Assembly (NCBI GenBank): GCA_916048095.2
Contig: OU696597.1
Coordinates: forward strand, 3,431,550 to 3,495,549
DNA: 64,000 nt
Direction: 5' to 3'
From: Sacculina carcini
Lineage: Eukaryota > Arthropoda > Thecostraca > Sacculinidae
Both the position numbers and the translations under genes were made by a program. Each line of letters opens with the position of its first letter. Within the stretch, counting starts at the first letter, position 1. The notes under the pieces were generated by a model. That model had not been told where the DNA came from and ran no database searches. It saw nothing but the letters and a program-made list of their open reading frames with translations. Of this stretch, positions 5,367-64,000 are shown piece by piece.

Positions 5367-5369
5367 GAA

Positions 5370-11399: not shown

Positions 11400-11436
<37 letters not shown>

Positions 11437-14055: not shown

Positions 14056-14092
<37 letters not shown>

Positions 14093-15996: not shown

Positions 15997-16250
15997 AAAT
16001 GAGACAACTAGTATGAGGGAGAAAAAGTATAAATTTGATTAAAATTGTATGGATGTATAAAGGTTGAGGTAGCCTTGGACCCAGGTGGCTGGCATTGTTG
16101 TATGTGTGTCTGTAGAGCCAACCCACACTGCGTGCGTGCAAATGCCCGGGGGTTGATATAAAAGACGGTGTTGACTAGGCAGTGGGGATAAGATCATTAT
16201 AGAATTGGAACAGAGACATTCGAGATGTGACCATATGAGCGTAGTAGGGG

Positions 16251-18398: not shown

Positions 18399-18618
18399 CT
18401 GTAAATCAGCCGACAACATCATGTATATATCATATAGACTCTTCTTGCCTGTAAAACTCATTGAAACCACACTTGATATGTGGCGTGGGTGAGAATGTCC
18501 AATGATGGAATCAGAAGTCAACATTGTCAATCTCTTTTGAATAACATGTTTGTCTTGTTTCATGGAACAAAGGTATAATGTTGTGCGGATTGAAAGAGAT
18601 GCAACGTTTGAACAGCAC

Positions 18619-43122: not shown

Positions 43123-43177
43123 CGCTAGATGAATGGAGTGAGTGGAGTCATTCCATTCTGCGTTTGTTTGCGAGCAG

Positions 43178-44302
43178 GTACTGGCAGTGATCGGAGCGGC
43201 ACAAATCCACGTTACAATCAGCTCTTCAATCGCGTTCGGAGGCGTGTTTATGTCTCAACAGCTGGTCGCGCTGCACCAAAACAAAACCGCAACAAACAGT
43301 AGTGGCAGCGACGCACTGCTTGTGCTGTCCGAGTGGCAGTTATCCATGATGGTGTCTGTGATCAACGTGGGACAATTGATTGGACTGCTCATTTGCTGCG
43401 CTGTCGGTCAACAACTGGGCGCGCGTCGCATACTTCTAGTCTCGGCCGTCATTATCACTGCTGGCTGGACATTGATGGCCATCGCTGGAACACTGCTCAC
43501 CAGTCTGTGGCCGCACGCGCTATTTGTGCTGTTGTGTTGTGGTCGCGTCGTGGTGGGTGTCGGCATTGGTGTCGGCGTGGCTCCCGCGACTTCTTACGTC
43601 AGCGAAGTAGCGTCGCCGCACTTGCGCGGCCGTCTACTCTCGCTGCTAATGATAGTAGCCTGCGCCAGCTACGTGGTGTCGTACGGTCTAGGCGGCGTGT
43701 GTGTGTGGACCTTGCTGTGCTATGTCAACTTGGTGTCGCCATTGTTGCAGTGGGCTATAATGCAGTACCTGCCGCCATCTGCTAAGTGGTTGTTGTCTCG
43801 CGAGTCGCACAACGAGAGGGCAGTGAAGTCCCTGCGATTCTTCCGCGGTCGCAACCACGACCATCGCGCCGAAGTCTCGGCCATCGCTGCGTCCATGAAC
43901 CCCAACACACGACGTCGTTCAGTGGTGCGTCTGTTTGGTCACCGGCACGTGCTAGTCCCGTTATCGATTAGCTGCGCCCTAACGGTCTTCCATGCGTTCT
44001 CGGGAGGCATGGCAGTCACATAGTTTGCACCTGTTATTTTTGACCGTCTGCACGCGTTGAGCGATGGCTCGACCGGCTCAATGATGCTGGATTGTGTGCG
44101 GATGCTGTGCGTGTGCGTGTGCGGTGTGCTGGTGTCGCACGTGAAACGCCGTTCTCTGTTGGTGTTCAACGGAACGGTGGGTGCCGTGACAGCGCTGTTT
44201 GCATCACTCTACTTCTTCTACGAGCAACGAGCAGCGACTAGCACCACACTGCACGCGGGACTATCAGTGGCGTGTTTGGTGTGTGTGCTGGTGATGGTAG
44301 GC
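43178..44302 (+). pseudogene. SLC2/MFS sugar-transporter exon, cut by a piggyBac element
   Basis: After the acceptor GTTTGCGAGCAG (43177, phase 0) a long exon encodes a major-facilitator sugar transporter. It has helix 1 (VLAVIGAAQIHVTISSS), a motif-A-like VGQQLGARR, GRVVVGVGIGVGVAP and YVSEVASPHLRGRL (the sugar-transporter signature), PPSAKWLLSRE (PESPRWL-like) and LRFFRGR. A helix-7-like HAFSGGMAVT follows, where the family has QQxSGxNAv, so the substrate glutamines are absent. A TAG at 44022-44024 ends the frame; repeat copies have TCG there. After the stop the frame resumes through the next helices to the TTAA at 44303, where the element begins. The 5' exons and the 3' end of the gene are not in view. 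Trehalose/glucose facilitators are the nearest family; the substrate is unknown. Confidence 0.85.
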
Positions 44303-44320
44303 TTAACCCATATTATCCCA

Positions 44321-44340
44321 ATGACTACATATGTAGTCAT
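44321..44340. repeat. 20-bp perfect palindrome, element 5' end
   Basis: ATGACTACATATGTAGTCAT, 18 bp inside the TTAA. With the preceding CCCA it forms a 24-bp word that recurs inverted at 44671-44694. Repeated in every unit, for example near 52762, 55600, 58438 and 61276. Likely a subterminal transposase-binding or hairpin site. Confidence 0.9.
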
Positions 44341-44670
44341 GCATTTCAGGAGGCCACCATTCATGATTTAGATATCATTATGGAATTTTAAAGGCATCAA
44401 CATAATTCTGCACTTTTTTCTGGCCTATATATCTCCAAAATAGCGTTCAATTAATATACCCCTTTAATTGTGATAAGAAATAATATCGGTTGTTTTCACG
44501 TTTTCGCGCTTCTGTTACCCTTTCATGTTGAAACCTGCATACTACTGTCGTGAGTACATCAATGGTGGTCTCTTTCACTCAGTTCATTATTGAATATGTG
44601 AGAAAGATTACCTAATGAAAATCCCCCTCATAAATTTCAGAACCTGTTCTTGAGGTAAGTTGAAAAATCC

Positions 44671-44690
44671 ATGACTACATATGTAGTCAT
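44671..44690. repeat. 20-bp perfect palindrome, inverted second copy
   Basis: Same palindrome followed by TGGG, the inverse of the first site. It lies 16 nt inside the putative first intron, after the donor at 44655. Confidence 0.9.
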
Positions 44691-45948
44691 TGGGCAACGT
44701 GTCAACAAATTATATGCATCAGTTGACGACTGGGCTGCTGACTTGTTATGTACTACTAAAAACTACTAATGGTCGTTATGTACTTCTAACCTAACCTATA
44801 TATATCCTTAGTGAATATCGTAGATATACAATATGTATAGTGAAGGTTTGCATGTAACAATCGCACGTGAATTTGGTCGTTCGAGACAACCTATGGTGGC
44901 ATCATCTAGCTAAGTATTGTGTGGGGCATTCTGTGGTCTTGTGCTAGATGAAATGGTATCGCTGGAATTTTGAAATTTGTAGTTTGGTTTGTGATTTTTT
45001 CCCTACAATGTAAGTACATTGAACCTTTTATTTTATTTTTTTCAGGATAGCAGTCTGGATAGTGGAATGTTTCATGAACCAAGGATCAGACCCCACAAGT
45101 TTCTTGGGGATGCCATCGATTTTGCTCAGACCAGGGATGGAGATGTGGACATTGTTATTACTGGTCCACCAAGCGGAGGTGACGACAGTGACATAGAACA
45201 GGTCGATGATGACACACTTGTAGATGTTGGAGGAATGCCAGAAGAAGTGGCAGGAGAGGTTGATGTCATGTATGAAGAATCCGATGCAGACGCTGCAACC
45301 GGTCATGTTTCCAGAAAAAAGCAAAAGCTAAGTGAACCTAAATGGACGAAGAGTCATATTTCTGCACAAGTGGACTTTAAAAAATATGAGAAAACGAATG
45401 CAAAAAAATTGCTCATGAAAATCTCGCCAGATATTATTGAGGCTTCTGAGTGGACTGTGTTTCAAAAAGTATTTGAAGAGATTCTTCAACATCTTGTCTG
45501 TGAAACCAATAGATACGCAGCCAGAGATAAGAATATGCCAGATTTCCAAATTACAGCTGAGGAAATGTATAACTTTTTAGGCTTGCTGATACTTTCTGGT
45601 TATAACATGCGCACGAGTGAGAGAGACTACTGGAGCAAAGCATCTGATCTTTGTTGCCCTGGTTTCGCTGAAACTATGAGTCGCAGTCGGTTTCAAAAAA
45701 TTAAAAGTGTATTGCACGCAGCTGACAACCAATCACTTCATTCAAGCAAAATGGCAAAAATTAAGCCATTATATGATCTACTAAATCAATCATTGCGCAT
45801 GTTTGGTATTCTGCATGAAAATCTAAGCATCGATGAGTCTATGGTGCCCTATTTTGGAAGACATTCTTGTAAACAATTCATACGAGGCAAGCCGATTCGT
45901 TTCGGGTATAAATGTTGGGTGATGAGTAGTTCATGTGGTCTTCCTTAC

Positions 45949-46392
45949 TGTAGCGTGTACTTACTCTTAAACTTCTGATGTGTTTTGCATGTGTTTATTT
46001 GGTTAGGGAAGCGTTATTTTTGTCTACGCTTGACTCATTCTTTTTGGTTGTCAACACCATGTTTGTTTTTGTATAAGCGTATAAATCCCGCAAACATTAA
46101 TTAAATTGTTTTAAATTCGAATTTTGATTTCTTTTTGTATGTCATGGCGTATATCCGTATGTTTCGGTGTTGTACAATCGTGACGCAAATGAAGCAATCA
46201 GTCTCGTGTCACGCTTCTTCTGGTTTTATATATACTTTGGTTCATGCTGACCGTTGGGCTGTATTTGGATATTTTTGTCGTATCTTGGAGTTGAATTATA
46301 TATATATATTTGAGTTTTCCAACGAGCTTGTTTCTTTTCCCGGTATTTCTGGGTTGTTCAAAGTATTTACCGTCTACCCAACAAACACAACA
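45949..46392 (+). mobile_element. 5' LTR of CsRn1-like gypsy
   Basis: Starts TGTAGCGTGTACTTACTC and ends at ...ACACAACA, 444 bp by this reading. The first 66 bp are identical to the 3' LTR remnant at 50625. It is preceded by 'cttac', the expected 5-bp target copy; the matching copy on the other side has been deleted. The right end is inferred from the TG..CA rule and the primer site 3 nt downstream. Confidence 0.75.
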
Positions 46393-46395
46393 AAT

Positions 46396-46413
46396 TGGTG
46401 ACCCCGACGTGAT
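46396..46413 (+). promoter_or_regulatory. Primer binding site, tRNA-Trp
   Basis: TGGTGACCCCGACGTGAT is complementary to the 3' end of metazoan tRNA-Trp (…CACGTCGGGGTCACCA). tRNA-Trp priming is known for the CsRn1/Kabuki lineage of Ty3/gypsy elements. Confidence 0.85.
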
Positions 46414-46419
46414 TTAATC

Positions 46420-47310
46420 ATGGGTAATGACGGTGATGATTCTGTGCAAATCTCAAATTCAGCACCAAATGCTTCATGTCCGGACGTTCGTCCAACTGCG
46501 TCATTTAAGTTGCCGCCTTTCGCGCCTGAAGAGTCTGAGTTGTGGCTGGCTCAGGTGAATTGCGCTTTTGCAGTAGCCGGCATTACTTCGGATGTGACGA
46601 AATTCCAATTTTTAGTGGCTGGATTGCCAATTCCAGTTGCTAGCCAATTGAGAGACCTTATTATGGGTCCTCCCAACTTTGAGGCCTTATGTGTTGGTCT
46701 TCGCAGCAGACTGGCTCATTCCAGAGAGGAGCGGTTGAGTGCTTTACTCAGGAACCAGCACCTCGGTGATCAGCTGCCTTCCCAGCTACTTCGGAGGATG
46801 AAACATGAGCTGACTGCTGCTGGTGACACTCATACAGACACTGGGTTGCTTCGAACATTGTTTTTTCAGCGTCTTCCATCACATGTTCGGGCCGCCATTT
46901 CTTTGTTACCAGAGACAACCACATTGGAGGAGATAGCTCAGGCTGCTGATCGTTTTATGGAGGCTACTAAAGGAGATCTTCCACTCGCTTCTGCTCTTCC
47001 AGCTCCTGTTTGCGCTGTGACTCGGTCTCCACAAGCGGACCCAATGCAGGAGCTAACTGCTGCCGTTACGAAGCTGACAACTGCTGTAACGAAGATGTCA
47101 GAACAACAAACTATGTATTTCAACTCTGGTTATCGTCGCGGAAGAAGTCGTGCTCGCTCCCAGTCTCGTTCTCCGGCCGTTCCTGATGACACGGAACGCT
47201 CAGCTAGCGGTCAAGAAAATCGCCTGTGCTGGTACCATCGCCGCTGGGGCAACAATGCCTCGAGATGTGTCCCTCCATGTGACTTCGAGCATTTAAACTC
47301 CCAGTGCTGA
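46420..47310 (+). CDS. Gag of CsRn1-like gypsy
   Basis: A 296-residue open frame from ATG 46420. The capsid-like helical part spans roughly residues 25-170 (FAPEESELWLAQVNCAF, QFLVAGLP, LLRRMKHEL, LRTLFFQRLPSHVRA and EEIAQAADRFME), followed by a Ser/Arg-rich linker (RGRSRARSQSRS). The C-terminal motif LCWYHRRWGNNASRCVPPC is a C..H..C..C pattern used in place of a CCHC knuckle in this lineage. It packages the element RNA. The stop is TGA at 47308. The last codons hold the slippery site for pol expression. Intact. Confidence 0.9.
   Translation: MGNDGDDSVQISNSAPNASCPDVRPTASFKLPPFAPEESELWLAQVNCAFAVAGITSDVTKFQFLVAGLPIPVASQLRDLIMGPPNFEALCVGLRSRLAHSREERLSALLRNQHLGDQLPSQLLRRMKHELTAAGDTHTDTGLLRTLFFQRLPSHVRAAISLLPETTTLEEIAQAADRFMEATKGDLPLASALPAPVCAVTRSPQADPMQELTAAVTKLTTAVTKMSEQQTMYFNSGYRRGRSRARSQSRSPAVPDDTERSASGQENRLCWYHRRWGNNASRCVPPCDFEHLNSQC
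47292..47298 (+). promoter_or_regulatory. -1 ribosomal frameshift site UUUAAAC
   Basis: The gag frame reads ..CAT TTA AAC.., giving the canonical X-XXY-YYZ heptamer T-TTA-AAC. The gag stop lies 9 nt downstream. Reading after a -1 slip enters the pol frame at 47298 (LPVLSHLAP). Confidence 0.85.
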
Positions 47311-50300
47311 GTCACTTGGCACCTGTCTCAGCTGCTTCTTCAACGCCACTGTTTCATGTCTTAGACAAGTTATCCGGGCATCGATTACTGGTAGACACTG
47401 GTGCTCAAGTAAGTGTGTGGCCAAATTCTAATCTACCGGACAATTCTCAGATCTGTTCGTCTGCCAGTCGATCTCCCAGTCTGCAAACAGCTGATGGTCG
47501 CTGTATCTCTACTACCGGCTCAGCTCTAATTGCTTTAGACATTGGAGACTCCACTAGGCCTTATCAGTGGCGGTTTATTCTAGCTGACGTTCCAGCACCT
47601 ATCCTCGGTGCGGATTTCCTGCAACACCATGGTCTCACTGTGGATCTCAATAACCGCCGGCTTAGTAATAGCATTCAGATCCTGAGCTCCCCGTTGGACA
47701 GCTCCTCAAACTTATTAGCAGCGGTTGGTTTGGCTCCACGTAATGCCGATGTTGAAGCTATTATTGTTAAATACCCATCAGTGACGCGACCGCCGAATTT
47801 TCAACTGCCCGTAAAGCACAATGTCGTCCACCACATATCGACCACTGGCCCGCCAGTACATGCCAAGGCTCGACGGCTGGCGCCAGATCGTCTCGCAGCT
47901 GCCAAAGCTGAATTTCAGCGACTAGAACAGATGGGCATTTGTCGTAGATCAAAGAGTCCGTGGTCGAGTCCACTGCATATGGTTCCTAAGAAGGACGGGT
48001 CCTGGAGGGTCTGCGGAGATTATCGGGCACTCAATGTTATCACTATTCCCGATAAGTATCCCATTCCGTTGGTGCATGACTCCTTCAATCATGTTCACAA
48101 TTGCAAATATTTTTCCCGTCTCGACATTATTCGTGCCTATAATCATATTCCTATTAATGCCGATGACATCCCTAAATCAGCCATCATCACACCATTTGGG
48201 CTTTTTGAGTTCACACGCCTTGGTTTTGGTTTTCGCAACGCTGCGCAGACCTACCAGCGTTTAATGGACACAATTTTCACTGACATGCCATTCTGTTCTG
48301 TTTATATCGACGATGTGCTAATTGCCAGTGAGTCGTACGCGGAACACATGCATCACATCGAAGCTGTGTTTCAAAAGCTGCATCAGCATGGATTAGTGGT
48401 GAATCCCGACAAATGCGTTTTTGCTGTCGACAGACTTTCCTTTTTAGGTCACATGATCTCAGCAAGCGGTATTTCAACACTGCAATCGAAGGTAGAAGCT
48501 GTGAACTCGTACCCTTTGCCTCGAACGGAAGCGGAACTCCGGCGGTTTGTTGGCATGATATCGTACTATCATCGGCTGATACCGCATGCTGCTGCCATAC
48601 TTGCTCCGCTCCATGCATTGATAACCACGCGCAGCCGCAAGTCTAGTCGGCCAGTCACATGGACAGCGGAAACTACGGCAGCGTTCCAACGCGCCAAAAC
48701 CAGCTTGGCGGCGGCCACTCAGCTGTCGTTTCCTGCCGCAGACGCGCCACTCTCGCTACAAGTCGATGCATCGGCCACATGTATCGGAGCAGTTCTCCAA
48801 CAGTATGTGGAAGGTGCCTGGCAACCATTGGCGTATTTCTCCCGTCAGCTATCGCCAACTGAGCGGCGGTACAGCGCTTTTGGTCGGGAGCTTCTGGCGG
48901 TGTATTCTGCGATTAGACATTTTCGGTACGCAGTGGAAGGCCGGAATTTCATTGTATATACCGACCATAAGCCGCTGATTGGTGCACTGAACTCTTCATC
49001 AGACCGTCACTCTCCGCGAGAAGTTCGTCAATTGGACTATGTTGTTCAATTTACCACTGACATCCGTCATGTTCCTGGGTCGTCAAACACTGTTGCCGAC
49101 GCGCTTTCACGGACTGTTTCTATGCTGTCTATTCCGACTCCCAGGCTTGACGATTTTTCAGCCTTGGCAGACGCCCAACATGAGGATGATGATCTGGGCA
49201 AGTTCATCGCCTCCAGTGAACACTCGCTGCAGCTTCGCCATGTTCCGTTGTCCTGTGGTCGAAAATTGTGCTGCGACTATTCGACAGGACAGTGTCGTCC
49301 GCTCCTACCGTCGGCTTTTCGACGTAACTATTTCAACCTGGTGCACAACTTATCGCACCCTGGAGTACATGCCACCCAACGTCTGGTCGCCGATCGTTTC
49401 GTGTGGCCAAATATGCGCCAAGACATCCGTCAGTGGGCTCAAGCTTGTGTAGGATGTCAGAAGGCCAAGGTCCAGCGGCATACGCGTACTCCGCCTGGTC
49501 GTTTTTCTCTTCCAAATTGCCGTTTCGAAGTGCTGCACATCGATTTGGTCGGACCATTACCGCCATCGAACGGGAACGAGTATATTTTGACGATTGTCGA
49601 CAGATACACCAGATGGTGTGAGGCCGTACCACTTGCCACCTCACATACAGAGAGTATTGCCAGCGCGCTCCTGCAGCATTGGGTTGCTCGTTTTGGAGTG
49701 CCGGAGACAATCATTTCTGATCGGGGTTCCCAATTCGAAAGTCGTCTTTGGAAAGCTCTCATGTGTCTTCTTGGCATCTCCAAGCGTCGAACGACCGCCT
49801 ACCATCCAGAAAGCAACGGGATGGTCGAAAGACTTCACCGTCAGCTCAAGGCCTGTCTTCGCGCAGTTGGCTCTTCCCATCGCTGGTCGGAACAACTCCC
49901 ATTGATCATGCTAGGCATCCGAGTAGCAGTTAAGACTGATCTGGGCTGTTCCAGTGCGGAACTCGTGTACGGCACGCCGTTGCGTATCCCCGGCGAATTC
50001 ATCGACTCAAGTTCTCGACCTCTGCCGTTGCCAGTTACCTTTTGCGATCGGTTGAAACAACACATGCGTAAAATCACGCCAGTGCCTCCGCGGACATCTC
50101 GGCGAGCAATTCATGTGCCAGCGGCCCTGAAAAATTGCTCACATGTCTTCCTGCGAGTAGACGCTTCTCACTCGTCATTGCAGCCAGCGTACACAGGACC
50201 GCATCGCGTTTTGCAGCGCACTGACAAGACAGTCACCATTGTAGATGTTCGACGCGGCAAACAGGTCGTCAGCCTCGACAGGTGTAAGGCAGCATTTGAC

Positions 50301-50612
50301 GACAACGCAATCCTTCCATCTGCCATACCAGATTCTACTGCAGTGCGTCGTCATCGCCGTGTTTATTTCACCACTGACGCGCCGACAATTTTGTCAGACA
50401 CTCGCCACTCGGAGAGTTTCACAATTAACACGCCACTCACTGCAGTTCCGAACGCCGAGTCTCCGTCACCTTTGTCTATGACCAACTCGGCACCTGTTCA
50501 ACAACCCCGTCCGTCGTCATCAACATCTCGCCGTCGTCAGCAACGACCGTCTGCGATTCCGGTCCGTACACGAAGTGGACGTGAAGTTCAGCTACCCTCT
50601 CGTTTTCGCTGA
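47298..50612 (+). CDS. Pol of CsRn1-like Ty3/gypsy (PR-RT-RH-IN)
   Basis: Intact frame of about 1,100 residues, in the -1 frame relative to gag. Counting from codon 47304, the protease active site LLVDTGAQV is near 31. RT (about 165-360) has WRVCGDYRALN, FSRLDIIRAYNHIPI and the catalytic SVYIDDVL near 334. RNase H has LQVDASATCIGAVL near 486 and YTDHKPL near 553. The integrase H2C2 finger (HNLSHPGVHATQ ... CVGCQ) is near 680-720 and the DDE core has LHIDLVGP near 746, ISDRGSQFE near 806 and NGMVERLHR near 842. All catalytic residues are present. No env follows. The RT residues and the tRNA-Trp primer site place it with CsRn1/Kabuki. The enzymes could be active, but the 3' LTR is truncated. 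Confidence 0.95.
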   Translation, partial: LPVLSHLAPVSAASSTPLFHVLDKLSGHRLLVDTGAQVSVWPNSNLPDNSQICSSASRSPSLQTADGRCISTTGSALIALDIGDSTRPYQWRFILADVPAPILGADFLQHHGLTVDLNNRRLSNSIQILSSPLDSSSNLLAAVGLAPRNADVEAIIVKYPSVTRPPNFQLPVKHNVVHHISTTGPPVHAKARRLAPDRLAAAKAEFQRLEQMGICRRSKSPWSSPLHMVPKKDGSWRVCGDYRALNVITIPDKYPIPLVHDSFNHVHNCKYFSRLDIIRAYNHIPINADDIPKSAIITPFGLFEFTRLGFGFRNAAQTYQRLMDTIFTDMPFCSVYIDDVLIASESYAEHMHHIEAVFQKLHQHGLVVNPDKCVFAVDRLSFLGHMISASGISTLQSKVEAVNSYPLPRTEAELRRFVGMISYYHRLIPHAAAILAPLHALITTRSRKSSRPVTWTAETTAAFQRAKTSLAAATQLSFPAADAPLSLQVDASATCIGAVLQQYVEGAWQPLAYFSRQLSPTERRYSAFGRELLAVYSAIRHFRYAVEGRNFIVYTDHKPLIGALNSSSDRHSPREVRQLDYVVQFTTDIRHVPGSSNTVADALSRTVSMLSIPTPRLDDFSALADAQHEDDDLGKFIASSEHSLQLRHVPLSCGRKLCCDYSTGQCRPLLPSAFRRNYFNLVHNLSHPGVHATQRLVADRFVWPNMRQDIRQWAQACVGCQKAKVQRHTRTPPGRFSLPNCRFEVLHIDLVGPLPPSNGNEYILTIVDRYTRWCEAVPLATSHTESIASALLQHWVARFGVPETIISDRGSQFESRLWKALMCLLGISKRRTTAYHPESNGMVERLHRQLKACLRAVGSSHRWSEQLPLIMLGIRVAVKTDLGCSSAELVYGTPLRIPGEFIDSSSRPLPLPVTFCDRLKQHMRKITPVPPRTSRRAIHVPAALKNCSHVFLRVDASHSSLQPAYTGPHRVLQRTDKTVTIVDVRRGKQVVSLDRCKAAFDDNAILPSAIPDSTAVRRHRRVYFTTDAPTILSDTRHSESFTINTPLTAVPNAESPSPLSMTNSAPVQQPRPSSSTSRRRQQRPSAIPVRTRSGREVQLPSRFR

Positions 50613-50624
50613 GGGGGGAGGTGG
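50611..50624 (+). promoter_or_regulatory. Polypurine tract
   Basis: GAGGGGGGAGGTGG immediately before the 3' LTR; primes plus-strand synthesis in LTR elements. Confidence 0.9.
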
Positions 50625-50690
50625 TGTAGCGTGTACTTACTCTTAAACTTCTGATGTGTTTTGCATGTGTTTATTTGGTTAGGGAAGCGT
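50625..50690 (+). mobile_element. 3' LTR remnant (66 bp)
   Basis: Identical to the first 66 bases of the 5' LTR, then broken. 'gagggaagc' (50691-50699) repeats the preceding 'agggaagc' and leads directly into transposase sequence. A deletion removed the remaining ~378 bp of LTR. Confidence 0.92.
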
Positions 50691-50698
50691 GAGGGAAG

Positions 50699-52302
50699 CA
50701 AGTTTCTTGGGGATGCCATCGATTTTGCTCAGACCAGGGATGGAGATGTGGACATTGTTATTACTGGTCCACCAAGCGGAGGTGACGACAGTGACATAGA
50801 ACAGGTCGATGATGACACACTTGTAGATGTTGGAGGAATGCCAGAAGAAGTGGCAGGAGAGGTTGATGTCATGTATGAAGAATCCGATGCAGACGCTGCA
50901 ACCGGTCATGTTTCCAGAAAAAAGCAAAAGCTAAGTGAACCTAAATGGACGAAGAGTCATATTTCTGCACAAGTGGACTTTAAAAAATATGAGAAACGAA
51001 TGCAAAAAAATTGCTCCTGAAAATCTCGCCAGATATTATTGAGGCTTCTGAGTGGACTGTGTTTCAAAAAGAATTTGAAGAGATTCTTCAACATCTTGTC
51101 TGTGAAACCAATAGATACGCAGCCAGAGATAAGAATATGCCAGATTTCCAAATTACAGCTGAGGAAATGTATAACTTTTTAGGCTTGCTGATACTTTCTG
51201 GTTATAACATGCGCACGAGTGAGAGAGACTACTGGAGCAAAGCATCTGATCTTTGTTGCCCTGGTTTCGCTGAAACTATGAGTCGCAGTCGGTTTCAAAA
51301 AATTAAAAGTGTATTGCACGCAGCTGACAACCAATCACTTCATTCAAGCAAAATGGCAAAAATTAAGCCATTATATGATCTACTAAATCAATCATTGCGC
51401 ATGTTTGGTATTCTGCATGAAAATCTAAGCATCGATGAGTCTATGGTGCCCTATTTTGGAAGACATTCTTGTAAACAATTCATACGAGGCAAGCCGATTC
51501 GTTTCGGGTATAAATGTTGGGTGATGAGTAGTTCATGTGGTCTTCCTTACCAAGTAACAGTATATGAAGGGAGGACTGAAAAATCATGCAACACTCCTCT
51601 AGGAACTCGTGTTGTAATGGAATGTTTGAAGATATGTGATAAGCCAAGTTCTCACTACATATTTTTCGATAATTTTTTCACATCCTATGATCTCATGAAA
51701 CAGTTGAAAACTCTTGGTTTCAAAGCTACTGGCACTGTGAGGAAAAACAGAATGAAAGGATGCCCACTCAAGACCGATGCAGCTATGAAAAAGAGTGAAA
51801 GAGGCTTTTACGACTACCGTTCAGATGGTGATATAGAGATGGTCAGGTGGAATGACAATTCAGTCGTGACCATGTGCAGCAATGCTATTGGACTAGAGCC
51901 AATTCGGCAAGTGGATAGAAGAGTAAAAACCAAGGGTGTCGTGAGTGTTCCCCAGCCAAATGTGGTCGCTTGCTATAATGCAGGTATGGGAGGAGTAGAC
52001 TTGATGGACAGATCGCTGGCAGACTTCAGGCCTACTATTCTCGGGAAAAAATGGTATTGGACTTTGATAATCAACGCAATAAATATCGCAGTTGTGTACA
52101 GCTGGAGAATTTATCAACTATCAACAAATTATGAATCAAAGCAAAAGGATTTTCGAAGAAGTTTGGTCACCGCTATGCTATATCAGTCTCAACCTAAGCC
52201 AAGATCAGCTTCACGATCTGGGCCTTCATTTTCTGTTCTTGAAGATGTGAGGACTGACAACATAAATCAATGTTGCAGGATTCTCGTTTCGCAAGGCTTT
52301 CG
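50699..52302 (+). pseudogene. piggyBac transposase copy P2 (5' truncated, frameshifted)
   Basis: Begins at KFLGDAIDF, lacking the element 5' end, the intron and the first codons. A 1-nt deletion in 'gagaaacgaatg' near 50998 breaks the frame; the rest (51011-52345) stays open and holds all catalytic Asp motifs. Private changes include KEFEEIL for KVFEEIL and VDRRVKTKG for VNRRVKNKG. It ends at the common junction into transporter sequence. Confidence 0.9.
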
Positions 52303-52743
52303 CACGACCATCGCGCCGAAGTCTCGGCCATCGCTGCGTCCATGAACCCCAACACACGACGTCGTTCAGTGGTGCGTCTGTTTGGTCACCGGCACGTGCT
52401 AGTCCCGTTATCGATTAGCTGCGCCCTAACGGTCTTCCATGCTTTCTCGGGAGGCATGGCAGTCACATCGTTTGCACCTGTTATTTTTGACCGTCTGCAC
52501 GCGTTGAGCGATGGCTCGACCGGTTCAATGATGCTGGCTTGTGTGCGGATGCTGTGCGTGTGCGGTGTGCTGGTGTCGCACGTGAAACGCCGTTCTCTGT
52601 TGGTGTTCAACGGAACGGTGGGTGCCGTGACAGCGCTGTTTGCATCACTCTACTTCTTCTACGAGCAACGAGCAGCGACTAGCACCACACTGCACGCGGG
52701 ACTATCAGTGGCGTGTTTGGTGTGCGTGCTGGTGATGGTAGGC
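52303..52743 (+). pseudogene. Transporter exon fragment M2
   Basis: Copy of transporter 43856-44302. The reading frame is open from DHRAEVSAIAASMNPN through the TTAA, with TCG where the parent has TAG and no deletion in the CVCG tract (though shorter by one GTGTGC unit). It is the only array copy whose transporter frame is intact, but it lacks the N-terminal half. Confidence 0.9.
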
Positions 52744-55141: not shown

Positions 55142-55184
55142 CACGACCATCGCGCCGAAGTCTCGGCCATCGCTGCGTCCATGA
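53508..55184 (+). CDS. piggyBac transposase (P3), transporter-derived tail
   Basis: DDE_Tnp_1_7 transposase. From Met 53508 (MFHEPRIRP) or, more likely, spliced at the acceptor TTTTTTCAG (53486) from an upstream exon; a TTG-initiated frame from 53460 reads through the intron end and is not credible. Acidic N-terminus (GGDDSDIEQVDDDTLVD), KKQK basic patch, then the core: SIDESMVPYFGRH (Asp near 256), IFFDNFFTSYDL (Asp near 333) and GMGGVDLMDRS (Asp near 444 and 447), the four acidic residues of piggyBac. After LEDVRTDNINH the family normally has a cysteine-rich C-terminal domain. Here the frame continues CCRILVSQGF then, past 55142, TTIAPKSRPSLRP from out-of-frame transporter sequence, and stops. 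Core intact, CRD absent, so DNA end binding is probably impaired. Confidence 0.93.
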   Translation: MFHEPRIRPHKFLGDAIDFAQTRDGDVDIVITGPPSGGDDSDIEQVDDDTLVDVGGMPEEVAGEVDVMYEESDADAATGHVSRKKQKLSEPKWTKSHISAQVDFKKYEKTNAKKLLLKISPDIIEASEWTVFQKVFEEILQHLVCETNRYAARDKNMPDFQITAEEMYNFLGLLILSGYNMRTSERDYWSKASDLCCPGFAETMSRSRFQKIKSVLHAADNQSLHSSKMAKIKPLYDLLNQSLRMFGILHENLSIDESMVPYFGRHSCKQFIRGKPIRFGYKCWVMSSSCGLPYQVTVYEGRTEKSCNTPLGTRVVMECLKICDKPSSHYIFFDNFFTSYDLMKQLKTLGFKATGTVRKNRMKGCPLKTDAAMKKSERGFYDYRSDGDIEMVRWNDNSVVTMCSNAIGLEPIRQVNRRVKNKGVVSVPQPNVVACYNAGMGGVDLMDRSLADFRPTILGKKWYWTLIINAINIAVVYSWRIYQLSTNYESKQKDFRRSLVTAMLYQSQPKPRSASRSGPSFSVLEDVRTDNINHCCRILVSQGFRTTIAPKSRPSLRP

Positions 55185-55581
55185 ACCCCAACACACGACG
55201 TCGTTCAGTGGTGCGTCTGTTTGGTCACCGGCACGTGCTAGTCCCGTTATCGATTAGCTGCGCCCTAACGGTCTTCCATGCTTTCTCGGGAGGCATGGCA
55301 GTCACATCGTTTGCACCTGTTATTTTTGACCGTCTGCACGCGTTGAGCGATGGCTCGACCGGCTCAATGATGCTGGCTTGTGTGCGGATGCTGTGCGTGT
55401 GCGTGTGCTGGTGTCGCACGTGAAACGCCGTTCTCTGTTGGTGTTCAACGGAACGGTGGGTGCCGTGACAGCGCTGTTTGCATCACTCTACTTCTTCTAC
55501 GAGCAACGAGCAGCGACTAGCACCACACTGCACGCGGGACTATCAGTGGCGTGTTTGGTGTGCGTGCTGGTGATGGTAGGC
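55142..55581 (+). pseudogene. Transporter exon fragment M3
   Basis: As M2, but a 1-nt deletion in the 'gtgtgcggtgtgc' tract (near 55405) shifts the frame, giving an early stop (WCRT). M4, M5 and M6 share it, so it arose before they multiplied. Confidence 0.92.
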
Positions 55582-57979
55582 TTAACCCATATTATCCCAA
55601 TGACTACATATGTAGTCATGCATTTCAGGAGGCCACCATTCATGATTTAGATATCATTATGGAATTTTAAAGGCATCAACATAATTCTGCACTTTTTTCT
55701 GGCCTATATATCTCCAAAATAGCGTTCAATTAATATACCCCTTTAATTGTGATAAGAAATAATATCGGTTGTTTTCACGTTTTCGCGCTTCTGTTACCCT
55801 TTCATGTTGAAACCTGCATACTACTGTCGTGAGTACATCAATGGTGGTCTCTTTCACTCAGTTCATTATTGAATATGTGAGAAAGATTACCTAATGAAAA
55901 TCCCCCTCATAAATTTCAGAACCTGTTCTTGAGGTAAGTTGAAAAATCCATGACTACATATGTAGTCATTGGGCAACGTGTCAACAAATTATATGCATCA
56001 GTTGACGACTGGGCTGCTGACTTGTTATGTACTACTAAAAACTACTAATGGTCGTTATGTACTTCTAACCTAACCTATATATATCCTTAGTGAATATCGT
56101 AGATATACAATATGTATAGTGAAGGTTTGCATGTAACAATCGCACGTGAATTTGGTCGTTCGAGGCAACCTATGGTGGCATCATCTGGCTACGTATTGTG
56201 TGGGGCATTCTGTGGTCTTGTGCTAGATGAAATGGTATCGCTGGAATTTTGAAATTTGTAGTTTGGTTTATGATTTTTTCCCTACAATGTAAGTACATTG
56301 AACCTTTTATTTTATTTTTTTCAGGATAGCAGTCTAGATAGTGGAATGTTTCATGAACCAAGGATCAGACCCCACAAGTTTCTTGGGGATGCCATCGATT
56401 TTGCTCAGACCAGGGATGGAGATGTGGACATTGTTATTACTGGTCCACCAAGCGGAGGTGACGACAGTGACATAGAACAGGTCGATGATGACACACTTGT
56501 AGATGTTGGAGGAATGCCAGAAGAAGTGGCAGGAGAGGTTGATGTCATGTATGAAGAATCCGATGCAGACGCTGCAACCGGTCATGTTTCCAGAAAAAAG
56601 CAAAAGCTAAGTGAACCTAAATGGACGAAGAGTCATATTTCTGCACAAGTGGACTTTAAAAAATATGAGAAAACGAATGCAAAAAAATTGCTCCTGAAAA
56701 TCTCGCCAGATATTATTGAGGCTTCTGAGTGGACTGTGTTTCAAAAAGTATTTGAAGAGATTCTTCAACATCTTGTCTGTGAAACCAATAGATACGCAGC
56801 CAGAGATAAGAATATGCCAGATTTCCAAATTACAGCTGAGGAAATGTATAACTTTTTAGGCTTGCTGATACTTTCTGGTTATAACATGCGCACGAGTGAG
56901 AGAGACTACTGGAGCAAAGCATCTGATCTTTGTTGCCCTGGTTTCGCTGAAACTATGAGTCGCAGTCGGTTTCAAAAAATTAAAAGTGTATTGCACGCAG
57001 CTGACAACCAATCACTTCATTCAAGCAAAATGGCAAAAATTAAGCCATTATATGATCTACTAAATCAATCATTGCGCATGTTTGGTATTCTGCATGAAAA
57101 TCTAAGCATCGATGAGTCTATGGTGCCCTATTTTGGAAGACATTCTTGTAAACAATTCATACGAGGCAAGCCGATTCGTTTCGGGTATAAATGTTGGGTG
57201 ATGAGTAGTTCATGTGGTCTTCCTTACCAAGTAACAGTATATGAAGGGAGGACTGAAAAATCATGCAACACTCCTCTAGGAACTCGTGTTGTAATGGAAT
57301 GTTTGAAGATATGTGATAAGCCAAGTTCTCACTACATATTTTTCGATAATTTTTTCACATCCTATGATCTCATGAAACAGTTGAAAACTCTTGGTTTCAA
57401 AGCTACTGGCACTGTGAGGAAAAACAGAATGAAAGGATGCCCACTCAAGACCGATGCAGCTATGAAAAAGAGTGAAAGAGGCTTTTACGACTACCGTTCA
57501 GATGGTGATATAGAGATGGTCAGGTGGAATGACAATTCAGTCGTGACCATGTGCAGCAATGCTATTGGACTAGAGCCAATTCGGCAAGTGAATAGAAGAG
57601 TAAAAAACAAGGGTGTCGTGAGTGTTCCCCAGCCAAATGTGGTCGCTTGCTATAATGCAGGTATGGGAGGAGTAGACTTGATGGACAGATCGCTGGCAGA
57701 CTTCAGGCCTACTATTCTCGGGAAAAAATGGTATTGGACTTTGATAATCAACGCAATAAATATCGCAGTTGTGTACAGCTGGAGAATTTATCAACTATCA
57801 ACAAATTATGAATCAAAGCAAAAGGATTTTCGAAGAAGTTTGGTCACCGCTATGCTATATCAGTCTCAACCTAAGCCAAGATCAGCTTCACGATCTGGGC
57901 CTTCATTTTCTGTTCTTGAAGATGTGAGGACTGACAACAGAAATCATTGTTGCAGGATTCTCGTTTCGCAAGGCTTTCG
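55582..57979 (+). mobile_element. piggyBac-type element copy P4
   Basis: Same structure as P3. Shares with P5 'gtttatgattttt' before the acceptor and 'gacaacagaaatc' (Arg for Ile near the C-terminus). Confidence 0.92.
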
Positions 57980-58022
57980 CACGACCATCGCGCCGAAGTC
58001 TCGGCCATCGCTGCGTCCATGA
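56346..58022 (+). CDS. piggyBac transposase (P4), transporter-derived tail
   Basis: Same protein as P3 except RNH for INH just before the junction. All four catalytic Asp kept, no stop or frameshift. Same uncertain start (acceptor at 56324). Confidence 0.92.
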   Translation: MFHEPRIRPHKFLGDAIDFAQTRDGDVDIVITGPPSGGDDSDIEQVDDDTLVDVGGMPEEVAGEVDVMYEESDADAATGHVSRKKQKLSEPKWTKSHISAQVDFKKYEKTNAKKLLLKISPDIIEASEWTVFQKVFEEILQHLVCETNRYAARDKNMPDFQITAEEMYNFLGLLILSGYNMRTSERDYWSKASDLCCPGFAETMSRSRFQKIKSVLHAADNQSLHSSKMAKIKPLYDLLNQSLRMFGILHENLSIDESMVPYFGRHSCKQFIRGKPIRFGYKCWVMSSSCGLPYQVTVYEGRTEKSCNTPLGTRVVMECLKICDKPSSHYIFFDNFFTSYDLMKQLKTLGFKATGTVRKNRMKGCPLKTDAAMKKSERGFYDYRSDGDIEMVRWNDNSVVTMCSNAIGLEPIRQVNRRVKNKGVVSVPQPNVVACYNAGMGGVDLMDRSLADFRPTILGKKWYWTLIINAINIAVVYSWRIYQLSTNYESKQKDFRRSLVTAMLYQSQPKPRSASRSGPSFSVLEDVRTDNRNHCCRILVSQGFRTTIAPKSRPSLRP

Positions 58023-58419
58023 ACCCCAACACACGACGTCGTTCAGTGGTGCGTCTGTTTGGTCACCGGCACGTGCTAGTCCCGTTATCGATTAGCTGCG
58101 CCCTAACGGTCTTCCATGCGTTCTCGGGAGGCATGGCAGTCACATCGTTTGCACCTGTTATTTTTTACCGTCTGCACGCGTTGAGCGATGGCTCGACCGG
58201 CTCAATGATGCTGGCTTGTGTGCGGATGCTGTGCGTGTGCGTGTGCTGGTGTCGCACGTGAAACGCCGTTCTCTGTTGGTGTTCAACGGAACGGTGGGTG
58301 CCGTGACAGCGCTGTTTGCATCACTCTACTTCTTCTACGAGCAACGAGCAGCGACTAGCACCACACTGCACGCGGGACTATCAGTGGCGTGTTTGGTGTG
58401 CGTGCTGGTGATGGTAGGC
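57980..58419 (+). pseudogene. Transporter exon fragment M4
   Basis: Carries the shared 1-nt deletion and also Asp-to-Tyr (FYRLHAL), shared only with M5. Confidence 0.92.
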
Positions 58420-60817
58420 TTAACCCATATTATCCCAATGACTACATATGTAGTCATGCATTTCAGGAGGCCACCATTCATGATTTAGATATCATTATGG
58501 AATTTTAAAGGCATCAACATAATTCTGCACTTTTTTCTGGCCTATATATCTCCAAAATAGCGTTCAATTAATATACCCCTTTAATTGTGATAAGAAATAA
58601 TATCGGTTGTTTTCACGTTTTCGCGCTTCTGTTACCCTTTCATGTTGAAACCTGCATACTACTGTCGTGAGTACATCAATGGTGGTCTCTTTCACTCAGT
58701 TCATTATTGAATATGTGAGAAAGATTACCTAATGAAAATCCCCCTCATAAATTTCAGAACCTGTTCTTGAGGTAAGTTGAAAAATCCATGACTACATATG
58801 TAGTCATTGGGCAACGTGTCAACAAATTATATGCATCAGTTGACGACTGGGCTGCTGACTTGTTATGTACTACTAAAAACTACTAATGGTCGTTATGTAC
58901 TTCTAACCTAACCTATATATATCCTTAGTGAATATCGTAGATATACAATATGTATAGTGAAGGTTTGCATGTAACAATCGCACGTGAATTTGGTCGTTCG
59001 AGGCAACCTATGGTGGCATCATCTGGCTACGTATTGTGTGGGGCATTCTGTGGTCTTGTGCTAGATGAAATGGTATCGCTGGAATTTTGAAATTTGTAGT
59101 TTGGTTTATGATTTTTTCCCTACAATGTAAGTACATTGAACCTTTTATTTTATTTTTTTCAGGATAGCAGTCTAGATAGTGGAATGTTTCATGAACCAAG
59201 GATCAGACCCCACAAGTTTCTTGGGGATGCCATCGATTTTGCTCAGACCAGGGATGGAGATGTGGACATTGTTATTACTGGTCCACCAAGCGGAGGTGAC
59301 GACAGTGACATAGAACAGGTCGATGATGACACACTTGTAGATGTTGGAGGAATGCCAGAAGAAGTGGCAGGAGAGGTTGATGTCATGTATGAAGAATCCG
59401 ATGCAGACGCTGCAACCGGTCATGTTTCCAGAAAAAAGCAAAAGCTAAGTGAACCTAAATGGACGAAGAGTCATATTTCTGCACAAGTGGACTTTAAAAA
59501 ATATGAGAAAACGAATGCAAAAAAATTGCTCCTGAAAATCTCGCCAGATATTATTGAGGCTTCTGAGTGGACTGTGTTTCAAAAAGTATTTGAAGAGATT
59601 CTTCAACATCTTGTCTGTGAAACCAATAGATACGCAGCCAGAGATAAGAATATGCCAGATTTCCAAATTACAGCTGAGGAAATGTATAACTTTTTAGGCT
59701 TGCTGATACTTTCTGGTTATAACATGCGCACGAGTGAGAGAGACTACTGGAGCAAAGCATCTGATCTTTGTTGCCCTGGTTTCGCTGAAACTATGAGTCG
59801 CAGTCGGTTTCAAAAAATTAAAAGTGTATTGCACGCAGCTGACAACCAATCACTTCATTCAAGCAAAATGGCAAAAATTAAGCCATTATATGATCTACTA
59901 AATCAATCATTGCGCATGTTTGGTATTCTGCATGAAAATCTAAGCATCGATGAGTCTATGGTGCCCTATTTTGGAAGACATTCTTGTAAACAATTCATAC
60001 GAGGCAAGCCGATTCGTTTCGGGTATAAATGTTGGGTGATGAGTAGTTCATGTGGTCTTCCTTACCAAGTAACAGTATATGAAGGGAGGACTGAAAAATC
60101 ATGCAACACTCCTCTAGGAACTCGTGTTGTAATGGAATGTTTGAAGATATGTGATAAGCCAAGTTCTCACTACATATTTTTCGATAATTTTTTCACATCC
60201 TATGATCTCATGAAACAGTTGAAAACTCTTGGTTTCAAAGCTACTGGCACTGTGAGGAAAAACAGAATGAAAGGATGCCCACTCAAGACCGATGCAGCTA
60301 TGAAAAAGAGTGAAAGAGGCTTTTACGACTACCGTTCAGATGGTGATATAGAGATGGTCAGGTGGAATGACAATTCAGTCGTGACCATGTGCAGCAATGC
60401 TATTGGACTAGAGCCAATTCGGCAAGTGAATAGAAGAGTAAAAAACAAGGGTGTCGTGAGTGTTCCCCAGCCAAATGTGGTCGCTTGCTATAATGCAGGT
60501 ATGGGAGGAGTAGACTTGATGGACAGATCGCTGGCAGACTTCAGGCCTACTATTCTCGGGAAAAAATGGTATTGGACTTTGATAATCAACGCAATAAATA
60601 TCGCAGTTGTGTACAGCTGGAGAATTTATCAACTATCAACAAATTATGAATCAAAGCAAAAGGATTTTCGAAGAAGTTTGGTCACCGCTATGCTATATCA
60701 GTCTCAACCTAAGCCAAGATCAGCTTCACGATCTGGGCCTTCATTTTCTGTTCTTGAAGATGTGAGGACTGACAACAGAAATCATTGTTGCAGGATTCTC
60801 GTTTCGCAAGGCTTTCG
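58420..60817 (+). mobile_element. piggyBac-type element copy P5
   Basis: By eye identical to P4. Confidence 0.92.
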
Positions 60818-60860
60818 CACGACCATCGCGCCGAAGTCTCGGCCATCGCTGCGTCCATGA
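59184..60860 (+). CDS. piggyBac transposase (P5), transporter-derived tail
   Basis: Identical by eye to the P4 protein; intact frame and catalytic residues. Confidence 0.92.
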   Translation: MFHEPRIRPHKFLGDAIDFAQTRDGDVDIVITGPPSGGDDSDIEQVDDDTLVDVGGMPEEVAGEVDVMYEESDADAATGHVSRKKQKLSEPKWTKSHISAQVDFKKYEKTNAKKLLLKISPDIIEASEWTVFQKVFEEILQHLVCETNRYAARDKNMPDFQITAEEMYNFLGLLILSGYNMRTSERDYWSKASDLCCPGFAETMSRSRFQKIKSVLHAADNQSLHSSKMAKIKPLYDLLNQSLRMFGILHENLSIDESMVPYFGRHSCKQFIRGKPIRFGYKCWVMSSSCGLPYQVTVYEGRTEKSCNTPLGTRVVMECLKICDKPSSHYIFFDNFFTSYDLMKQLKTLGFKATGTVRKNRMKGCPLKTDAAMKKSERGFYDYRSDGDIEMVRWNDNSVVTMCSNAIGLEPIRQVNRRVKNKGVVSVPQPNVVACYNAGMGGVDLMDRSLADFRPTILGKKWYWTLIINAINIAVVYSWRIYQLSTNYESKQKDFRRSLVTAMLYQSQPKPRSASRSGPSFSVLEDVRTDNRNHCCRILVSQGFRTTIAPKSRPSLRP

Positions 60861-61257
60861 ACCCCAACACACGACGTCGTTCAGTGGTGCGTCTGTTTGG
60901 TCACCGGCACGTGCTAGTCCCGTTATCGATTAGCTGCGCCCTAACGGTCTTCCATGCGTTCTCGGGAGGCATGGCAGTCACATCGTTTGCACCTGTTATT
61001 TTTTACCGTCTGCACGCGTTGAGCGATGGCTCGACCGGCTCAATGATGCTGGCTTGTGTGCGGATGCTGTGCGTGTGCGTGTGCTGGTGTCGCACGTGAA
61101 ACGCCGTTCTCTGTTGGTGTTCAACGGAACGGTGGGTGCCGTGACAGCGCTGTTTGCATCACTCTACTTCTTCTACGAGCAACGAGCAGCGACTAGCACC
61201 ACACTGCACGCGGGACTATCAGTGGCGTGTTTGGTGTGCGTGCTGGTGATGGTAGGC
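60818..61257 (+). pseudogene. Transporter exon fragment M5
   Basis: As M4, including the Tyr change. Confidence 0.92.
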
Positions 61258-63655
61258 TTAACCCATATTATCCCAATGACTACATATGTAGTCATGCATT
61301 TCAGGAGGCCACCATTCATGATTTAGATATCATTATGGAATTTTAAAGGCATCAACATAATTCTGCACTTTTTTCTGGCCTATATATCTCCAAAATAGCG
61401 TTCAATTAATATACCCCTTTAATTGTGATAAGAAATAATATCGGTTGTTTTCACGTTTTCGCGCTTCTGTTACCCTTTCATGTTGAAGCCTGCATACTAC
61501 TGTCGTGAGTACATCAATGGTGGTCTCTTTCACTCAGTTCATTATTGAATATGTGAGAAAGATTACCTAATGAAAATCCCCCTCATAAATTTCAGAACCT
61601 GTTCTTGAGGTAAGTTGAAAAATCCATGACTACATATGTAGTCATTGGGCAACGTGTCAACAAATTATATGCATCAGTTGACGACTGGGCTGCTGACTTT
61701 TTATGTACTACTAAAAACTACTAATGGTCGTTATGTACTTCTAACCTAACCTATATAAATCCTTAGTGAATATCGTAGATATACAATATGTATAGTGAAG
61801 GTTTGCATGTAACAATCGCACGTGAATTTGGTCGTTCGAGGCAACCTATGGTGGCATCATCTGGCTACGTATTGTGTGGGGCATTCTGTGGTCTTGTGCT
61901 AGATGAAATGGTATCGCTGGAATTTTGAAATTTGTAGTTTGGTTTGTGATTTTTCCCTACAATGTAAGTACATTGAACCTTTTATTTTATTTTTTTCAGG
62001 ATAGCAGTCTGGATAGTGGAATGTTTCATGAACCAAGGATCAGACCCCACAAGTTTCTTGGGGATGCCATCGATTTTGCTCTGGACCAGGGATGGAGATG
62101 TGGACATTGTTATTACTGGTCCACCAAGCGGAGGTGACGACAGTGACATAGAACAGGTCGATGATGACACACTTGTAGATGTTGGAGGAATGCCAGAAGA
62201 AGTGGCAGGAGAGGTTGATGTCATGTATGAAGAATCCGATGCAGACGCTGCAACCGGTCATGTTTCCAGAAAAAAGCAAAAGCTAAGTGAACCTAAATGG
62301 ACGAAGAGTCATATTTCTGCACAAGTGGACTTTAAAAAATATGAGAAAACGAATGCAAAAAAATTGCTCCTGAAAATCTCGCCAGATATTATTGAGGCTT
62401 CTGAGTGGACTGTGTTTCAAAAAGTATTTGAAGAGATTCTTCAACATCTTGTCTGTGAAACCAATAGATACGCAGCCAGAGATAAGAATATGCCAGATTT
62501 CCAAATTACAGCTGAGGAAATGTATAACTTTTTAGGCTTGCTGATACTTTCTGGTTATAACATGCGCACGAGTGAGAGAGACTACTGGAGCAAAGCATCT
62601 GATCTTTGTTGCCCTGGTTTCGCTGAAACTATGAGTCGCAGTCGGTTTCAAAAAATTAAAAGTGTATTGCACGCAGCTGACAACCAATCACTTCATTCAA
62701 GCAAAATGGCAAAAATTAAGCCATTATATGATCTACTAAATCAATCATTGCGCATGTTTGGTATTCTGCATGAAAATCTAAGCATCGATGAGTCTATGGT
62801 GCCCTATTTTGGAAGACATTCTTGTAAACAATTCATACGAGGCAAGCCGATTCGTTTCGGGTATAAATGTTGGGTGATGAGTAGTTCATGTGGTCTTCCT
62901 TACCAAGTAACAGTATATGAAGGGAGGACTGAAAAATCATGCAACACTCCTCTAGGAACTCGTGTTGTAATGGAATGTTTGAAGATATGTGATAAGCCAA
63001 GTTCTCACTACATATTTTTCGATAATTTTTTCACATCCTATGATCTCATGAAACAGTTGAAAACTCTTGGTTTCAAAGCTACTGGCACTGTGAGGAAAAA
63101 CAGAATGAAAGGATGCCCACTCAAGACCGATGCAGCTATGAAAAAGAGTGAAAGAGGCTTTTACGACTACCGTTCAGATGGTGATATAGAGATGGTCAGG
63201 TGGAATGACAATTCAGTCGTGACCATGTGCAGCAATGCTATTGGACTAGAGCCAATTCGGCAAGTGAATAGAAGAGTAAAAAACAAGGGTGTCGTGAGTG
63301 TTCCCCAGCCAAATGTGGTCGCTTGCTATAATGCAGGTATGGGAGGAGTAGACTTGATGGACAGATCGCTGGCAGACTTCAGGCCTACTATTCTCGGGAA
63401 AAAATGGTATTGGACTTTGATAATCAACGCAATAAATATCGCAGTTGTGTACAGCTGGAGAATTTATCAACTATCAACAAATTATGAATCAAAGCAAAAG
63501 GATTTTCGAAGAAGTTTGGTCACCGCTATGCTATATCAGTCTCAACCTAAGCCAAGATCAGCTTCACGATCTGGGCCTTCATTTTCTGTTCTTGAAGATG
63601 TGAGGACTGACAACATAAATCATTGTTGCAGGATTCTCGTTTCGCAAGGCTTTCG
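61258..63655 (+). mobile_element. piggyBac-type element copy P6
   Basis: Same structure. Private changes: 'gttgaagcctg' near 61484, 'gactttttatg' near 61696, 'tatataaatcc' near 61752, one T fewer before the acceptor (61952), and 'gctctggacc' near 62081. It has 'agtctggatag' like P1, not 'agtctagatag'. Confidence 0.92.
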
Positions 63656-63698
63656 CACGACCATCGCGCCGAAGTCTCGGCCATCGCTGCGTCCATGA
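62021..63698 (+). pseudogene. piggyBac transposase (P6), frameshifted near the N-terminus
   Basis: The normal frame from ATG 62021 is broken by a 1-nt insertion at 'gctctggacc' (about 62081), within DFAQTRDGD. Downstream of it the frame is open to 63698, with all catalytic Asp and the INH form of the tail. The long frame from 62016 (GTG) only bypasses the shift by reading the N-terminus in another frame. Confidence 0.88.
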
Positions 63699-64000
63699 AC
63701 CCCAACACACGACGTCGTTCAGTGGTGCGTCTGTTTGGTCACCGGCACGTGCTAGTCCCGTTATCGATTAGCTGCGCCCTAACGGTCTTCCATGCTTTCT
63801 CGGGAGGCATGGCAGTCACATCGTTTGCACCTGTTATTTTTGACCGTCTGCACGCGTTGAGCGATGGCTCGACCGGCTCAATGATGCTGGCTTGTGTGCG
63901 GATGCTGTGCGTGTGCGTGTGCTGGTGTCGCACGTGAAACGCCGTTCTCTGTTGGTGTTCAACGGAACGGTGGGTGCCGTGACAGCGCTGTTTGCATCAC
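63656..64000 (+). pseudogene. Transporter exon fragment M6 (cut by window end)
   Basis: Has the shared 1-nt deletion but Asp (FDRLHAL) like M3. The array continues past the window. Confidence 0.9.

Follow-up and report, generated by a model that had tools for sequence, protein, structure and literature searches.

We analysed a window of 64,000 nucleotides from Sacculina carcini (contig C31, OU696597.1; C31:3431550-3495549) in a 264-Mb, 43-contig assembly (GCA_916048095.2), and also read 60 kb past the window. Positions are given in window coordinates, which we extend beyond its end where needed. The right part of the window holds an array of 2838-bp units, arranged head to tail, in which a piece of a sugar-transporter exon is joined to one end and the transposase of a piggyBac transposon. 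The array starts at 43856 and spans to about 82227 in extended coordinates (C31 about 3513776). The 124 kb contain no N. Chance as the origin of the repeat is ruled out by the near-exact 2.8-kb copies.

Each unit is composed of 440 bp of the exon up to a TTAA, the first 2367 bp of piggyBac counted from that TTAA, and a 31-bp filler, which leads back to the identical exon position each time. An earlier note on this DNA had described a 2838-bp head-to-tail repeat present at least five times with identical junctions, and this is what the sequence contains, with the array going on to about 82.2 kb. It had also taken the host piece as the 3’ part of the exon, reaching the TTAA. The piece does reach the TTAA, but it is the middle part of the exon, from 43856 to that site. 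Its claim of a single transposon end per unit is borne out: the TTAACCCATATTATCCC end is present (the motif was checked in three units, the remaining ones by alignment), and the last 484 bp, including the 3’ end, are absent.

The 5’ part of the truncated exon (43142..43855, plus strand, as are all features of the array) lies outside the repeat. The frame at 43142-44023 matches Sugar_tr (PF00083, E=1.5e-30), and a full-length 617-residue paralogue is found on contig C35. Database matches of the sugar transporter have 34% identity or less. The left edge of the array is continuous with the upstream part of the native exon, and the intact C35 copy shows the same continuity. Within the window there is one split unit, four full units (starting at 52303, 55142, 57980 and 60818) and the start of another (63656-64000). 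In total, the array has seven full units (A2-A5 and A7-A9), six partial ones (A1a, A1b, A6a, A6b, A10 and a 127-bp piece) and nine junctions. The seven full units are 99.6-100% identical to the reference unit, A3.

The host part of A1a (43856..44302) ends at the TTAA at 44303-44306 and carries a 7-bp stretch also present at three related host loci, described below (the first unit of B, C and D). Its piggyBac 5’ end and transposase start (44303..45948) are broken off by a Gypsy-type element. The partial unit A1b (50699..52302) covers unit positions 1234-2838 and closes with the filler of the first junction (52272..52302). A2 (52303..55141) is composed of the host part, a TTAA at 52744-52747, piggyBac to unit position 2807 and the filler at 55111-55141. 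A3 (55142..57979) has its TTAA at 55582-55585, its transposase frame at 56346-58022 and its filler at 57949-57979. In A4 (57980..60817), the frame is at 59184-60860 and the filler at 60787-60817. A5 (60818..63655) ends with the filler at 63625-63655, and its transposase frame stops after 38 codons. The start of A6a (63656..64000) is the last part seen in the window, with the array going on beyond it. At the right end of the array, the last unit breaks at unit position 1462 and is followed by the 127-bp piece (unit positions 1707-1833) and then by unrelated DNA.

The Gypsy-type long terminal repeat (LTR) retrotransposon in unit A1 (45949..50698, plus strand) has Pfam matches to RVT_1, RNaseH, rve and RVP on the frame at 47304-50612. 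Its 3’ LTR, judged by eye, breaks off after about 65 bp, and about 10 bp later the sequence continues at unit position 1234. As A1 is interrupted at unit position 2086, A1b re-enters about 852 bp upstream, leaving an 852-bp duplication of the unit around the element. The matching broken arrangement is present again in A6 (extended positions 65742-70491), with one difference in 4750 bp, so the insertion predates the duplication of the 19.8-kb block described below.

Dispersed copies of the same piggyBac family allow the founding element to be described. Thirteen near-full-length copies are listed and six were examined, all of which have both ends and a flanking TTAA at a length of 2848-2853 bp. 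The ends of all six are of the form CCC...GGG flanked by TTAA, a feature of the piggyBac superfamily. The founding element was about 2851 bp long, and since the complete copies are 2848-2853 bp, the array unit is without the last 484 bp. Having no 3’ end, the unit does not possess the two ends of a mobile piggyBac element. Two single-nucleotide polymorphisms (SNPs) in the element, at unit positions 586 and 917, separate the units of the array and of locus B that cover them from all six dispersed copies compared. The simplest reading of these shared SNPs would be one founding insertion; conversion that spread one type would look alike.

An 18-bp palindrome, TGACTACATATGTAGTCA, is found at 19, 369 and about 2697 bp from the element start in five of the six copies; the other copy has it at two of the three positions. 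Two sites are kept in each of the three array units checked. Three further copies (C15:4484258-4486007, C15:4587935-4589685 and C30:3125085-3126834) have a common internal gap at unit positions 1831-2505, which suggests a non-autonomous form of the element, or several copies of such a form. Upstream of the transposase ATG, at unit positions 790-1185 (e.g. window 55931-56326), there is a donor-like GAG|GTAAGT and an acceptor-like TTTTTTCAG|GA motif. These suggest a predicted intron in the 5’ untranslated region, which is kept in the three units checked.

The junction between units lies 484 bp inside the element and is made through the 31-bp filler (GTTGCAGGATTCTCGTTTCGCAAGGCTTTCG); there is no element tip and no target-site duplication at this point. 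The five fillers in the window (starts 52272, 55111, 57949, 60787 and 63625) are identical. The whole assembly was searched for the filler, allowing up to 3 mismatches and with the reversed pattern as control. This gave 11 matches, all exact and all on C31, with nine in the array and two at locus B, and none for the control. All 11 adjoin homologous host flanks and none is at an unrelated site. The whole filler was not found outside these 11 junctions in the assembly at up to 3 mismatches; shorter pieces were sought in local DNA only. The middle 15 bp of the filler recur exactly and in the same orientation at 40846-40860, a possible template that lies 3 kb upstream from the host breakpoint. 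With shuffled fillers that preserve base composition only, a match as long was seen in 2 of 1000 in an 8-kb flank and in 0 of 300 across all 43.9 kb of upstream DNA. The match is suggestive and no more; a template switch, or an end joining with templated insertion, would fit it as the founding event.

The position of the junction also bears on alternative transposition, by which the piggyBac transposase, acting on reversed ends or on sister chromatids, would have made the duplication directly. Ends of maize Ac yield direct tandem duplications in this way (PMC3744419). The family also has near-identical dispersed copies, three of the six compared having an open frame of 574 residues. As the junction is away from the element tip, inside the element with a filler and not at a tip with TTAA, an event like that of maize Ac is disfavoured, and we regard it as extremely improbable.

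Three other host loci carry related sequence. At locus D, on C35, the exon paralogue has an open 617-residue frame through an empty TTAA at the corresponding place, and this exon crosses the breakpoint without interruption. Locus B consists of two near-identical copies 30.4 kb apart (C31:4286533-4322780), with 5 mismatches in the 19,177 bp compared. Each copy includes the exon flank, a single full unit that has the identical junction, and another unit that is cut off at position 571. The junctions are at C31:4288033 and 4318436, 0.8 Mb from the array, and the units have SNPs of their own. The near-identity of the two copies points either to a very recent duplication or to a haplotype artefact. 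Locus C (C31:4414 kb) likewise has the flank, together with a unit that ends at the 571 point seen in B, and it has no junction. Leaving gaps apart, flank mismatches are 85/7341 between the array (A) and B, 79/7365 between A and C and 45/7285 between B and C. With the fewest mismatches between them, B and C look like sisters.

The units of the array differ by variants that come in a fixed order and recur in two blocks 19,800 bp apart. A1b equals A6b, A2 equals A7 and A3 equals A8, and A4 differs from A9 at one site. A5 and A10 share eight variant sites relative to A3, of which four (671, 883, 941 and a deletion at 1133) are in no other copy compared. Only A5 has an insertion and a change at 1265-1266. 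The resulting 19,800-bp higher-order repeat is 99.9% identical over 18.4 kb, with 13 mismatches and 2 gap openings, and 10 of the mismatches fall in the A1a/A6a pair. A6a equals the interior reference unit over all its 2086 bp. A1a differs from it at 10 positions, and it is A1a that keeps the 7-bp stretch of the first B unit, C and D. This is as expected if the block had been doubled by exchange between an interior unit and A1a.

Furthermore, three pairs of sites (141/1129, 187/1129 and 187/1195) show all four combinations among ten A rows and one B row, and hence the units have exchanged parts. A7-A10 mirror A2-A5 and are not independent, and all four combinations already occur among A1a-A5. 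Unequal crossing over with conversion would explain such ordered recombinant variants, which a single rolling-circle burst does not by itself. The earlier note had proposed unequal exchange or rolling-circle replication for the amplification. The former is supported by the higher-order repeat and the four-combination pairs, and nothing specific points to the latter.

A related possibility is that an extrachromosomal circle of host piece and truncated piggyBac, closed by the filler, was amplified by rolling circle and integrated as a ready array. Head-to-tail units with a single junction fit any circle, and for the Bari1 clusters of Drosophila an anomalous rolling-circle origin with re-integration is one proposal (PMC9659126). 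However, the left edge of this array is continuous with the native upstream exon, the array has recombinant unit variants and a 19.8-kb higher-order repeat, and the 11 fillers are all on C31 beside homologous host flanks. We therefore hold this origin to be unlikely. A circle that re-entered by homology at the original site would look like a tandem duplication, and it is a possible first step.

Near-identical blocks, such as the 19.8-kb pair here and the 30-kb pair at locus B, are typical places for an assembler to fail, and one or two real units could have been expanded in this way. We give this little credence, for the units have distinct ordered variants, indels and an inserted Gypsy-type element, the identical junction exists at a second locus with SNPs of its own, and there is no N in the 124 kb.

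The explanation that we favour, with good though not full confidence, is an aberrant join inside an inserted piggyBac followed by growth through unequal exchange and conversion. Starting from what can be read in the sequence itself (the parts of the unit, the founder SNPs, the junction, the higher-order repeat and the recombinant variants), we infer the following order of events. A complete piggyBac would have inserted at the TTAA of a chromosomal copy of the sugar-transporter exon. One repair or replication error would then have linked a point 484 bp short of the element’s end to a position in the host exon that lies 440 bp upstream from the insertion, by way of the 31-bp filler, which is perhaps partly templated. 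This would have produced a direct tandem duplication in which the internal copy is left with a single element end. Through unequal crossing over and gene conversion among the repeats, the array would have grown and its units would have been shuffled. A Gypsy-type element would have inserted into one unit, and the 19.8-kb block would have been doubled by another unequal exchange at a later time. The array presumably has no selected function. That the interior of the element was aberrantly linked to upstream host DNA had been suggested in the earlier note, and the shared founder SNPs support it. Of the two routes that the note named for this link, circularisation or template switch, the latter is suggested by the 15-bp match of the filler.

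Several observations weigh against this explanation or parts of it. The 15-bp match was the best result from trials with four source sequences, and it sits in a retroelement-like frame, so that another copy of that repeat could be the source. Between A and B, the piggyBac interior has 7 mismatches in 2236 bp compared with 85/7341 in the flank (Fisher p=1e-4; 7/1515 and p=0.012 with A1a instead of A3). The junction may thus have passed between loci A and B at a later time, and not have been inherited by both. Recombination may have removed a unit from C, or B may have acquired one from an array of type A; as the interior is less diverged than the flank between A and B, the second would be favoured. 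Differing mutation rates are another possible cause of this contrast. The unit number and the near-identical second 19.8-kb block, which are known from the assembly alone, could be partly an assembly or haplotype artefact. On the other side, C31, the one contig considered in this respect, has other tandem duplications, among them those of the other half of this exon, which speaks for the explanation; the cause of the amplification may therefore be the chromosome region rather than the transposon.

As for the region, the exon’s 3’ half, which begins at the TTAA, is found at eight further places of C31, mostly about 10 kb apart and in two clusters (L034-L036 and L043-L048; C31:3200774-3235760 on the plus strand and C31:3782839-3803946 on the minus strand). 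Both exon halves have been amplified apart from each other. The missing piggyBac 3’ end was considered as a neighbour of the exon 3’ half, and the nine short loci at these eight places, with about 1.5 kb on each side, have no piggyBac match. The window also has a tandem pair at 9050-14705 (2656-bp period, 99.8%) and a direct duplication at 1-18444 (14.4-kb spacing, 98.7%). The locus B region holds tandem duplications as well.

In terms of coding capacity, transposase frames were read from the conserved ATG. The open frame of A2 (53508..55184, plus strand) has 558 residues, is without the cysteine-rich domain and ends in the host part of the next unit. It matches DDE_Tnp_1_7 (PF13843) with E=6.5e-73, as a transposase of the piggyBac superfamily does. 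The open frames of the array agree with the native protein over the first 534 residues, apart from single changes, and then continue into a host-derived tail of 24 residues. The last 40 native residues, and with them the C-terminal cysteine-rich domain, are gone. The 558-codon frame is open in six of the seven full array units and in both B copies, which makes eight open frames, and every one of them has a 5’ element region of its own. Among the broken frames, that of A5 is frameshifted and stops after 38 codons, that of A10 stops at 96, and those of A1a and A6a at 303, in the Gypsy-type element. A frame of 574 codons is open in three of the six dispersed copies examined.

The native protein has IDE, FDN and GGVD motifs, which we take to be the holders of the catalytic Asp. 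It aligns through these motifs with piggyBac and piggyBat chains (PDB 6x67/6x68 and 9c0f), and the active-site residues of piggyBat are named in PMC11707139. The cysteine-rich end is present in the native 574-residue form and in all eight relatives aligned (of 1459 matches), with some of the cysteines replaced in P0012. In piggyBac, this domain binds a palindromic internal repeat beside the end and is reported as required for activity, and integration in vitro rose once its binding site was removed from the right end (PMC7351741). The corresponding domain of piggyBat likewise binds a palindrome, and there is no such domain in the domesticated PGBD1 and PGBD5 (PMC11707139). Because these two are without it too, its absence is not decisive for membership of the superfamily. 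Judged by homology, the array proteins keep the core but probably cannot bind the palindrome sites, and without the cysteine-rich domain they would be expected to be poor at transposition or incapable of it.

Coding changes were scored against unit A3 in eight rows (A1a, A1b, A2, A4, A5, A7, A9 and B1u). All 13 distinct changes listed for the array and B are nonsynonymous, compared with 78% expected (P=0.04). Six of them occur only in already broken frames, and in the open frames 7/7 are nonsynonymous. In the six dispersed copies, 18 of 21 coding changes are nonsynonymous. There is no sign of purifying selection on the array frames, with 13 changes giving little power.

The earlier note had supposed an array of intact transposase frames that could raise transposase dosage. 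The frames are not intact transposases, and A5 is frameshifted; the idea of a raised dosage is weakened by the missing cysteine-rich domain and by the lack of visible constraint among the few coding changes. Given the loss of the domain and the lack of a sign of purifying selection, a higher dosage from the array is unlikely, and intact, dosage-raising transposases as the leading explanation were rejected on the C-terminal loss and the coding changes. It is very unlikely, in our estimate, that the array is a reservoir of transposases without the cysteine-rich domain that pair with the full-length enzyme and restrain a young family, or a source of small RNAs against that family. If it were, this would be a repressor made by tandem duplication, or silencing through transcription of repeats. 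The presence of open transposase frames in an array does not by itself imply a higher transposase activity.

Still present in this genome are an intact gene copy whose site is empty, relatives of the element with both ends, one locus that has a single full unit, another that lacks the junction, and an array that has expanded and contains a higher-order repeat. How an accidental duplication turns into a satellite-like array can thus be followed step by step in one genome. Like a satellite, the array has head-to-tail units with concerted variation, in the form of higher-order repeats and recombinant variants. The high copy number and long arrays of satellites are absent, with 7 full units here and one per copy of locus B.

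The locus is a transposon-containing tandem duplication becoming an array, which is an already known kind, and not a new type of element. Among the titles and abstract openings listed in searches of an open-access library, there was no description of a host-exon/piggyBac array of this sort. In the model of McGurk and Barbash (2018), double insertion of a transposable element reportedly seeds satellite DNA, with a dimer arising first and unequal exchange expanding it. The likeness is in this dimer and its later expansion by unequal exchange. The difference is that no second insertion would be involved here: the second copy would stem from a duplication with its start in host DNA and its end within the element.

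The Bari1 clusters of Drosophila melanogaster (PMC9659126) similarly consist of a DNA transposon repeated head to tail many times at a single site. By comparison, the units here add host exon DNA, have one transposon end only and are linked by a non-homologous junction with filler. Alternative transposition of maize Ac (PMC3744419) is alike in producing a direct tandem duplication linked to a transposon, but the array junction has neither an element tip nor a target-site duplication. Lastly, with piggyBac and piggyBat (PMC7351741, PMC11707139), the family shares the TTAA target, the DDE core (PF13843), a palindrome near the element end and, in its native form, a C-terminal cysteine-rich stretch. 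In contrast, the versions encoded by the array are without this domain and carry the 24-residue tail derived from the host.

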